From Bryobacter sp. CoA8 C33 (lineage in GTDB: Bacteria; Acidobacteriota; Terriglobia; Bryobacterales; Bryobacteraceae): 61,484 nucleotides of DNA. Numbering within the stretch: the stretch's first letter is position 1; every line of letters begins with the position of its first letter. The notes under the pieces were generated by a model. That model was not told the DNA's origin and did no database searches. It saw only the letters and a list, made by a program, of their open reading frames with translations. Shown here piece after piece: positions 29,996 to 43,673 of the stretch. The stretch covers positions 1-61,484 of the forward strand of contig JAINDK010000081.1 in assembly GCA_019931185.1 (NCBI GenBank), written 5' to 3'. The translations under genes were made by a program, and so were the position numbers.

Positions 29996-30102
29996 GCCAG
30001 ACCTCGGGTGATCCGCGGCACACGGGCTAAACCACTACCGTTGCTTCCTTCCGGACCTGGCGGGGTTCGCAGCCGACCGTTGCACGGAGCCCAAGGCCTG
30101 AC
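29996..30102 (-). ncRNA. ffs: Signal recognition particle RNA, small bacterial type
   Basis: On the minus strand the conserved SRP core reads CCAGGTCCGGAAGGAAGCA, the GNAR-tetraloop/asymmetric loop helix 8 element bound by Ffh. The ends pair in a 13-bp stem (GTCAGGCCTTGGG with CCCGAGGTCTGGC, allowing G-U), giving a hairpin-rod of about 107 nt without an Alu domain. It lies just upstream of dnaX in the same direction, a synteny common in bacteria. Ends are set by the closing stem and may be off by a few bases. Confidence 0.93.
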
Positions 30103-41751: not shown

Positions 41752-43104
41752 TCACTCGCTCCCCTTCGCATACGCCGATAACATCACCCTCACCCCCGCC
41801 TTCGCCGGCTTCACAAACTCGAGCGACAATATGCCCCCCGCGTCCGTCCGCGCCTCTTCGATCTCCTGGTCATCCACCTCCACGTCATACACCGCATTCG
41901 CCCGCAATCCCACGATGTACCACGCCTCCCGGTCCGCCCCCGCCAGCTCAAATTGCACCGGCTTCAACAAATCCTGGCCCCCCACCAGAATCGTCGCTCC
42001 GCCCATCTCCACCGGCGGCGTCGCCGGCGACACCCGCAACAGCTTCCTCTTGCCGTCCTCAAATAACTGGATCTTCCCGTCGTAGTAACAAAGAAACCGC
42101 GACTCCTCCTCCCAGTTGTCCCGGATAAACAGCCGCCCATTCCGCCGGTCATGATACGAGTTCGGCAAATGATGGTACGTCAGCCCCGGCTGATACGGAT
42201 TCGCCCACAACAACTCATACGCAATCCCCTGCCCCGAGCGCAGCAGATAGCGGTCCTGCATTAGCCACCCCTGCAAGCTCTGCGCCAACTCCGCATTGTT
42301 GTCCAACGCTACCAGCGCCAGCTCCGCCGCCCGCATCATCGTCGCCAGCCCCAAATCCGGCTCCCCGTCCCCTTCAAAAAACATCACCCGAAACTCGTTC
42401 TCCTTGCCCGGATACGGCGCTGGATAATACCCCAGCATCTGCACCAGCGGCAAATCCAAAAAGTACCGCGCCGACTCCTGCCGCAAATCAATCTCCAGGT
42501 TGTCCCGCACCACATGCAATAGCTCCATCAGCGGATACAGATCCTCCGCCTTCACCGGCGTCGCCGCTCGCAACCCCGGCGCCACCGCCGCCCGGTATTG
42601 CCCCACCGTCTCCCGCATCACCCGCTCGGAAAAAGCCCCGTCATAATCCACCAGCGCCAGCCCCACAAACGCCCGGTCCCGCAAACTCGCAATCCCCCCC
42701 GCCGCCGGCAAACTCCGCTTCAATCCCTCCGCCAGCGCCTTCGCCTGCGCCGCCTCGATCTTGTCCCCACACCAGTCATACACCAGCGCCTGCTGGCGCA
42801 CATCCGTTTTCTTGTCCTTCGCCACCCACCTCGCCGCAATCCCGCAATACTGCTCCCCCGCCCCGATCCGCCCCGCCAGCGCCAGCGCAAACCCCATCTC
42901 CCCCATCGCCATCTGATTCGACAAATACCCCGCGAATTGCTGATACCGGATCGACTCCCGCTCCCGCTCCCGCGTCAACAGCCGCAGCCGCGCCCCCTTC
43001 AACAATAGCCGCGGCGCCTCCGTATACGCTTTGTAGCTCTCCTCCGGCGCGACCCCCTGCCCATTCAGGCTCAGACATGCCATCATCCAGATCCAGTACC
43101 GCAT
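41752..43104 (-). CDS. Secreted protein of unknown function, possible alpha-toroid fold
   Basis: A 450-residue protein with an N-terminal leader (MRYWIWMMACLSLNGQG). Residues about 25-300 are helix-rich with regularly spaced hydrophobic segments (GFALALAGRIGAGEQYCGIA, ELLHVVRDNLEIDLRQES). A beta-rich C-terminal third follows (RFLCYYDGKIQLFEDGKRKL). This helix-then-sheet plan resembles heparinase II/III or other polysaccharide lyases, but no catalytic motif is recognised. It lies upstream of phzF and RNase T2 on the same strand with touching junctions, and the stop overlaps a possible GTG start of phzF. Confidence 0.7.
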   Translation of the reverse strand: MRYWIWMMACLSLNGQGVAPEESYKAYTEAPRLLLKGARLRLLTRERERESIRYQQFAGYLSNQMAMGEMGFALALAGRIGAGEQYCGIAARWVAKDKKTDVRQQALVYDWCGDKIEAAQAKALAEGLKRSLPAAGGIASLRDRAFVGLALVDYDGAFSERVMRETVGQYRAAVAPGLRAATPVKAEDLYPLMELLHVVRDNLEIDLRQESARYFLDLPLVQMLGYYPAPYPGKENEFRVMFFEGDGEPDLGLATMMRAAELALVALDNNAELAQSLQGWLMQDRYLLRSGQGIAYELLWANPYQPGLTYHHLPNSYHDRRNGRLFIRDNWEEESRFLCYYDGKIQLFEDGKRKLLRVSPATPPVEMGGATILVGGQDLLKPVQFELAGADREAWYIVGLRANAVYDVEVDDQEIEEARTDAGGILSLEFVKPAKAGVRVMLSAYAKGSE

Positions 43105-43226
43105 CGTCCCCCCAGTGTGTCACACAGACCCGTATCTGTGTCCCCTTGCCCCCCTCGGTCCCCCTCCTCCATCAAAAACCCTATTGTTTTCAATCAAATC
43201 TTTTTCTCCCACTCTGGCCGATCATT

Positions 43227-43235
43227 TGCTATCTT
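43227..43235 (+). promoter_or_regulatory. Extended -10 promoter element of the small RNA
   Basis: TGCTATCTT, an extended -10 (TGn plus TATCTT). It lies about seven bases upstream of the first base of the structured RNA proposed at 43242. No good -35 hexamer is seen 16-18 bp upstream, which is tolerated by extended -10 promoters. Confidence 0.45.
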
Positions 43236-43241
43236 ATCTAG

Positions 43242-43415
43242 TGAATTGATGGAGTAATCTCCAAAACCTGCCCTCTGTTGCAACTGGCAGGCGGTTAAAG
43301 CGAGCGGGTCCCAAAGACTTGCGTGCTTGCGGGAGTCGGGATCGGAATTCTGAGAACCGCTCACTCATCCGTTTAACGGTTGCACCAGAGGGGATTTTTG
43401 TCCCCTCTTTCTTTT
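43242..43415 (+). ncRNA. Rod-shaped small RNA, 6S-like in shape
   Basis: A non-coding stretch that folds as a single long rod and ends at an intrinsic terminator. Stems by eye: 43271-43284 with 43379-43392 (14 positions, one mismatch: CCCTCTG/CAGAGGG then TGCAAC/GTTGCA); 43294-43299 with 43372-43377; 43302-43307 with 43357-43362; 43309-43312 with 43338-43341; 43316-43319 with 43334-43337. A large asymmetric loop (43342-43356) and a length of about 175 nt recall 6S RNA, which mimics an open promoter and binds RNA polymerase. No protein start or downstream + gene follows. RNA status is well supported; 6S identity is only a suggestion. Confidence 0.6.
43387..43415 (+). terminator. Intrinsic terminator of the small RNA
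   Basis: Perfect 8-bp stem AGAGGGGA (43387-43394) and TCCCCTCT (43401-43408) with a TTTTTG loop, followed by a T-rich tail. The left arm is shared with the 3' strand of the rod's closing stem, so the two structures are mutually exclusive. Confidence 0.88.
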
Positions 43416-43673
43416 ATTGATTTTTCTTAATCTGGAACACGGCGTGCTCCCAGCCTTCCTGAGCCCGGTCGCTTTACCCTTTTCCGGTAACAGTTCTCCC
43501 CGCTCACAGATCTCCTTATTTCCCAGTTTTTCCCCAATCGGAGTACCGGCTGTGCTGTCGCTGTTGGATGAAGATTTGACTTAGGACGCGGGTCTTTTTC
43601 CGGCAAGATGGCGGGAACCATTGCGCGATTCAGCCGCAGGCGCACCGATTGTTGCCCCAGCAGAACCGAGGGC

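Follow-up and report, generated by a model that had tools for sequence, protein, structure and literature searches.

The window analysed here is a stretch of 61,484 nucleotides from Bryobacter sp. CoA8 C33 (Acidobacteriota, Bryobacteraceae). Between an ORF on its minus strand (41752–43104) and the next minus-strand ORF, from 43859, lies a gap that holds, on the plus strand, a gene for an RNA of about 160 nt with the shape of a rod. The observation of this gene is confirmed, and the RNA is indeed unannotated, as no Rfam family (Rfam 15) matches the locus at or above its gathering score. The only match of this search over the window lies elsewhere and is the bacterial small SRP RNA, at 29999–30096 on the minus strand (74.7 bits). 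The original prediction placed the RNA at 43227–43415. The rod lies there, and the extent has to be corrected: the start is predicted at G43241, from the promoter boxes described below, and the 3′ end at about 43399 (about 43415 if a second hairpin is counted). The covariance model of the RNA (R1) matches 43243–43399 with 148.3 bits.

Nearly all Bryobacteraceae genomes sampled have the RNA, which turned up in none of the others searched in the class and the phylum. With positions 43150–43450 as a blastn query, 40 of 101 genomes have matches (the window's own included), and 39 of these 40 have a single one. From all 30 loci fetched, the RNA could be excised by means of a single leader motif and a single closing motif, and 11 of the 30 excised loci served to build the covariance model. 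This model matches 51 of the 54 Bryobacteraceae genomes sampled, counting the window's genome (G000), a presence that argues against a chance structure. It matches none of the 196 other genomes of the class and 3 of 297 genomes in a sample of the phylum, G000 among them and all three Bryobacteraceae, in searches (as for all those of more than 40 genomes) whose stricter filters lose weak matches. An exact two-part pattern retrieves 110 stretches; among the 80 listed, 78 are titled within Acidobacteriota and the other two are labelled Arcobacter and Planctomycetota. The RNA is mostly present in a single copy per genome. Second, weaker copies were seen in G044 (C94:16520–16653) and G060 (C24:21493–21560).

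The long rod of nested complementary segments is well supported in the window and in its homologues. The segment 43240–43411 folds with an energy of −71.2 kcal/mol (z = −4.26), and none of 200 shuffled sequences is equally stable; among 52 homologues, folded without recourse to an alignment, z averages −4.06 and is below −2 in 51. Covariation among relatives, suggested at the outset as a check, is strong when the 52 homologues are aligned to the model: 92.8% of the cells are paired, two-sided changes occur in 18 of 31 pairs, and the covariation score reaches 0.288; 500 shuffled alignments give 0.154, none of them reaching the observed value, and slid structures give no more than 0.061. All these counts come from an alignment made to fit the covariance model, and such a fit favours the structure of that model. 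On a plain MAFFT alignment, RNAalifold finds two-sided change in 1 of 18 pairs, in our view because MAFFT misaligned the variable middle of the RNA. Alignment A1 was made without L004, which is identical to L003 across the RNA.

The RNA opens with a leader of about 30 nt (43241–43270, starting GUGAAUUGAUGGAGU), in which GAAUUG is almost invariant and which is mostly unpaired in the predicted folds (mean unpaired probability of about 0.4–0.8 per position). The closing stem P1 follows, its 5′ strand being CCCUCUG-UU-GCAAC (43271–43284) and its 3′ strand, placed by the covariation alignment, GUUGCACCAGAGGG (43379–43392); the consensus is CCCUCUG-n-UGCAAC/GUUGCA-n-CAGAGGG, and over the 52 loci 99.7% of the cells are paired in helix 1 and 90.7% in helix 2. 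A variable, covarying middle separates P1 from stem P2, which pairs GAGCGG (43302–43307) with CCGCUC (43357–43362, from the same alignment), with 94.5% of cells paired and two-sided changes in five of its six pairs. The rod is capped by an apical hairpin (CGUGCUUGCGGGAGUCG, 43322–43338, loop GCGG) of near-invariant consensus CGUGCUUGCGGGAGyCG, whose four inner pairs are 97.1% paired. Predicted folds show a one-sided 3′ bulge in many homologues and two hairpins in others; L009, L012, L013, and L017 are among the relatives whose minimum-energy fold trades the upper rod for two hairpins (GCGAGC/GCUUGC). Because this competing fold is found in part of the family, the top of the RNA (43302–43362 in the window, and its homologues) may have two states.

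The homologues also bear on the idea that the transcript is simply the mRNA of a small protein. A closed frame of at least 15 codons is indeed present in 31 of the 52 copies, the longest having 38 codons, but the commonest start column is common to only seven of the 52, lengths vary by single bases, and the changes keep the pairs, which makes this reading hardly conceivable.

The closing stem CCCUCUG/CAGAGGG is followed directly by a T-run in 116 of the 119 distinct loci (43395–43399 in the window). With the T-run right behind it, the stem could serve as the hairpin of an intrinsic terminator, so that the rod probably ends its own transcription. A terminator had been predicted, and there is one, yet the usual one is this combination of closing stem and T-run and not the small hairpin downstream (GAGGGGATTTTTGTCCCCTC, 43388–43407), which has GAGGG in common with P1. 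A loose pattern for that extra hairpin is found in 5 of the 119 loci, and, on reading, only the window and G001 show it clearly. A switch between two folds, with the closing stem and the terminator competing for one strand, had also been put forward; given that the extra hairpin is not conserved, it is not upheld.

The gene has a promoter of its own, but not of the type first proposed. The element TGCTATC, read as an extended −10, is present, and comparison of the loci identifies it as the −12 half of a predicted sigma-54 promoter, TGGCCGATCATTTGCT (43215–43230, plus strand), with the −24 GG at 43216–43217 and the −12 GC at 43228–43229. These boxes place +1 at G43241, 24 nt after the −24 G. 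The arrangement GG-N10-GC is described as the sigma-54 signature in PMC6296734. Among the 119 distinct RNA cores, six lacked sufficient upstream DNA or the leader motif; in the other 113, GG-N10-GC lies between −32 and −22 of the leader GAATTG in 111 loci, compared with 283 of 2260 equally wide control windows. It begins at −27 in 88 loci, at −26 in 21, at −24 in one, and at −22 in one, so that 109 of the 113 have it at one of two adjacent positions; in the remaining two loci (L040 and L190) it was found by the box search made for the palindrome described below. When 111 upstream regions are aligned on the leader, TGG stands out at −28 to −26 and TGC at −16 to −14 relative to GAATTG, and no −35/−10 pair of equal conservation is seen in them. 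RpoN is encoded in the window's genome (190.9 bits).

Such a promoter sets the RNA apart from 6S RNA, with which it had been compared for its size, rod shape, and large asymmetric internal loop. 6S RNA has a central bubble that stays open and looks like an open promoter; it binds RNA polymerase and templates product RNAs. The resemblance in length and shape, together with the mostly single copy and the near ubiquity in Bryobacteraceae, would suit a 6S RNA of this family acting as regulator of the polymerase. The suggested search with the Rfam models for 6S RNA and for the acidobacterial RNAs Acido-1 and Acido-Lenti-1 gave no match at the locus, and for 6S RNA (RF00013) there is none in 43100–43500 at E values up to 10. 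Moreover, with a limit of E 0.001, RF00013 has matches in 39 of the 54 Bryobacteraceae genomes, and in 16 the match exceeds the Rfam cut-off. In 36 of the 54, the RNA and such a match lie at separate places; the 6S match is above the cut-off in 15 of these. Hence, the RNA cannot be the only 6S RNA of these genomes. G000 gives no match to RF00013 at E 0.001, but a divergent 6S gene is found in it by homology (C110:175218–175422, L116); its Rfam score of 23.9 bits is below the cut-off, so the identification rests on homology. Nine 6S genes compared have blocks such as TTGATCC and GGAGAAGCCT in common, and no relation to the RNA was found between the two sets (best blastn match of 17 nt, E = 0.03). 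That the RNA is the 6S RNA of Bryobacteraceae is thus very improbable. The members of the window's genus in the class sample (G000, G001, G002, and G006) are all without an RF00013 match.

Upstream of the promoter lies a putative enhancer. In the window it is a degenerate copy, TGTGTCACACAGACCCG (43116–43132), of the palindrome TGTGTC-N5-GACACA, with two mismatches to TGTGTCANNNNGACACA and 125 nt before the RNA start. A second half-site, TGTGTC, can be read at 43137–43142, spaced by two turns of the helix (21 bp) from the first, and a similar layout is read in relatives of the genus. In the family, with upstream regions aligned on the −24/−12 boxes, and thus presupposing these, the palindrome pattern is found in 78 of 113 loci (76 have exactly TGTGTC-N5-GACACA by reading), against 0.05 in shuffles; L050, L134, L136, L181, and L205 were unfit for this set, and one further locus had too little upstream DNA. 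By position, 52 of the 78 lie at −128 to −124, 20 at −118 to −115, three at −105, and three elsewhere. The main groups (near −126, −116, and −105) are spaced by one turn of the helix, which is what sites for an activator that has to face the polymerase would show. If up to two mismatches to TGTGTCANNNNGACACA are allowed, 112 of the 113 loci have a site (74 without any mismatch), always between −145 and −100, and none of the 113 has one in a single shuffle each.

The same 113 loci were used for two further counts. Between the palindrome and the promoter, the window has an IHF-like site, AATCAAATCTTTT (43192–43204, plus strand), with one mismatch to WATCAANNNNTTR, which we take to be the IHF consensus; sites with at most one mismatch occur between −100 and −36 in 48 loci, against about three in shuffles. 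TTGACA is present at −34/−35 in 30 loci, which suggests that a sigma-70 start may add to expression in some members. An additional sigma-70 start is reported for glmY (PMC6075780). The predicted promoter, the putative enhancer, and the gene for RpoN are sequence features of a sigma-54-dependent sRNA, which is a regulatory kind and not a homology family.

The ORF at 41752–43104, divergent from the RNA, codes for a protein of 450 amino acids that is probably secreted. It has no match in Pfam or NCBIfam. From its structural model (pLDDT 86.5), which is similar to heparinase II and alginate lyases (E = 2.9e-6 at best, with a TM of 0.45 normalized by query length), a heparinase II/alginate-lyase-like fold is predicted. 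The family of this protein has strong matches in 50 of the 54 Bryobacteraceae genomes, and weaker ones in two more and in six genomes of a sister family. The gene adjoins the RNA in 17 of 19 loci compared and in 42 of the 50 Bryobacteraceae genomes that have both, the two being on separate contigs in the other eight. On the downstream side, no plus-strand gene follows in the window, and no downstream gene is conserved in the 19 loci (of 21 sources; in L039 and L050 the RNA was not placed by the pattern). The argument first made against a simple attenuator is thus borne out, and regulation in cis of a downstream gene is rejected.

The close association with the divergent gene, with the palindrome lying near the start of that gene, and the strand common to rod and terminator in the window might still point to a cis-acting leader or attenuator, or to a regulator of the lyase-like gene. 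Such a role is improbable on the following grounds. No plus-strand gene downstream is conserved, and the leader shows no excess of complementarity to the 5′ region of its own divergent neighbour, its own pair being better than swapped pairs in 26 of 60 cases (p = 0.67, for the first 60 of the 113 loci). The RNA and the neighbour lie on different contigs in eight genomes, and in the two of these that were looked at (G048 and G039) the promoter and the exact palindrome remain with the RNA. Having their control region in common may suffice to hold the two genes together.

The reading we consider likely is that of a stand-alone regulatory sRNA, specific to Bryobacteraceae, transcribed from a sigma-54 promoter, switched on by an enhancer-binding protein, and acting in trans. 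From the conserved elements we infer the following course of events. An enhancer-binding protein would sit on the palindrome, about 105–128 bp upstream, IHF would bend the DNA between palindrome and promoter, and RNA polymerase with sigma-54 would make the RNA of about 160 nt. The leader would stay mostly single-stranded while the remainder zips into the rod, and the closing stem with its T-run would end transcription. The leader (GAAUUGAUGRAGU...AAACCUG) would then most likely pair with mRNAs in trans, helped by Hfq, which is encoded in the window's genome (92.6 bits), or by another RNA-binding protein. Alternatively, the near-invariant apical hairpin could hold a protein. Pairing by the leader is ranked first and a protein decoy second.

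Candidate targets were sought with the complement of the leader, CTTCATCAATTC (a seed 12-mer). In 14 genomes it has 34 matches, 14 being the RNA itself; the 20 others compare with five for the reversed control. Of these 20, 18 were read as loci, and no conserved match at a translation start is among them. Three homologous matches were rejected as antisense to one large ORF, presumably rpoB. A homologous pair in two genomes of one genus (L254 and L275) is in sense orientation but, by reading, inside coding sequence. One match precedes an ORF that we take to be urea-carboxylase-associated-like; a conserved stretch of coding sequence accounts for this match, which is lost in the window's genome. 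The remaining matches read have no context in common.

That the leader searches yielded no conserved mRNA target is one point in favour of a protein-sequestering decoy, in which hairpin and rod would bind a regulator and mRNA pairing would be secondary. Another is that CGUGCUUGCGGGAG is conserved beyond the need of pairing alone. CrcZ acts as a sequestering RNA and carries Hfq/Crc-binding repeats. Some known sigma-54 sRNAs act in the decoy manner, as described for GlmY in PMC6075780. In the RNA studied here no repeated binding motif was seen and no protein candidate has emerged, and the leader GAAUUG is about as conserved as the apical hairpin, which suggests pairing. We therefore regard a decoy as possible but doubtful.

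The preferred reading of a trans-acting, sigma-54-dependent sRNA has close parallels in proteobacteria as far as control is concerned. GlmY of Enterobacteriaceae is controlled by QseF/GlrR, IHF, and sigma-54, with upstream sites TGT-N12-ACA (PMC6075780). Here, too, an upstream site (TGT-N11-ACA), an IHF-like site, and a sigma-54 promoter would precede one sRNA. Unlike GlmY, which has three sites and an adjoining activator operon, the RNA as a rule has one palindrome and no adjoining activator, a GAFTGA-type motif being found in the DNA around it in only 2 of 119 loci. CrcZ and CrcY of Pseudomonas depend on CbrB, IHF, and sigma-54, with an IHF site between promoter and enhancer (PMC6296734), an arrangement matched here along with GG-N10-GC. 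The Qrr sRNAs of Vibrio are likewise driven by sigma-54 and enhancer-binding proteins (PMC10162802), but belong to another phylum and have no Rfam relation to the RNA. Neither GlmY nor GlmZ is among the three Rfam matches obtained at E up to 10. Hence, control resembles that of GlmY and CrcZ, and the RNA itself is without relation in Rfam. Sigma-54/enhancer control of a single sRNA is known from proteobacteria, and our results suggest that it also occurs, with an unrelated RNA, in a phylum far from these.

Soils are rich in Acidobacteriota, and, to our knowledge, little has been learned about the regulatory RNAs of this phylum. Among the matches listed in a search of titles and abstract beginnings of the Acidobacteriota literature, from which subscription journals were mostly outside the scope, no description of the RNA was found. 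Solibacter-1, Acido-1, and Acido-Lenti-1 are structured RNA candidates of Acidobacteria (PMC2864571). The latter two have Rfam numbers and do not match the RNA; Solibacter-1 has no Rfam number in the table of that paper and is known to us by description only, so that identity with the RNA is possible. As the RNA comes with its whole control region throughout Bryobacteraceae, a direct search for its activator, signal, and targets is possible.

The distribution of the palindrome gives some indication of how narrow this control may be. Across 16 genomes there are 17 exact copies of the palindrome, 11 at the RNA and six elsewhere, and nine genomes have theirs at the RNA locus alone; five genomes lack an exact copy there, and G054 has none at all. 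The reversed control pattern was found in only one of the 16 genomes. CbrB, by contrast, which recognizes subsites of the TGTTAC type, acts on at least 61 targets (PMC6296734). We tentatively suggest, as an idea with the odds against it, a dedicated relay in Bryobacteraceae, in which an enhancer-binding protein would have an operator nearly private to one sRNA and a regulon consisting essentially of that sRNA. The signal would be passed on by leader pairing, by a protein held at the hairpin, or by both, perhaps in the control of the envelope or of exopolysaccharides, as the lyase-like neighbour suggests.

No activator motif was found around the palindromes of G039 C125, G035 C40, and G000 C40. 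Four of the six palindromes away from the RNA belong to the genus of the window, in which the copy adjacent to the RNA is degenerate (two mismatches), and in G000 the sole exact palindrome lies away from the RNA. In three genomes of this genus (L230, L232, and L233, near position 1500), a homologous ORF has the exact palindrome at its start codons (M-C-R-F-D-T or similar), perhaps a coding coincidence; this ORF is divergent from a gene that we take to be FecR-like.
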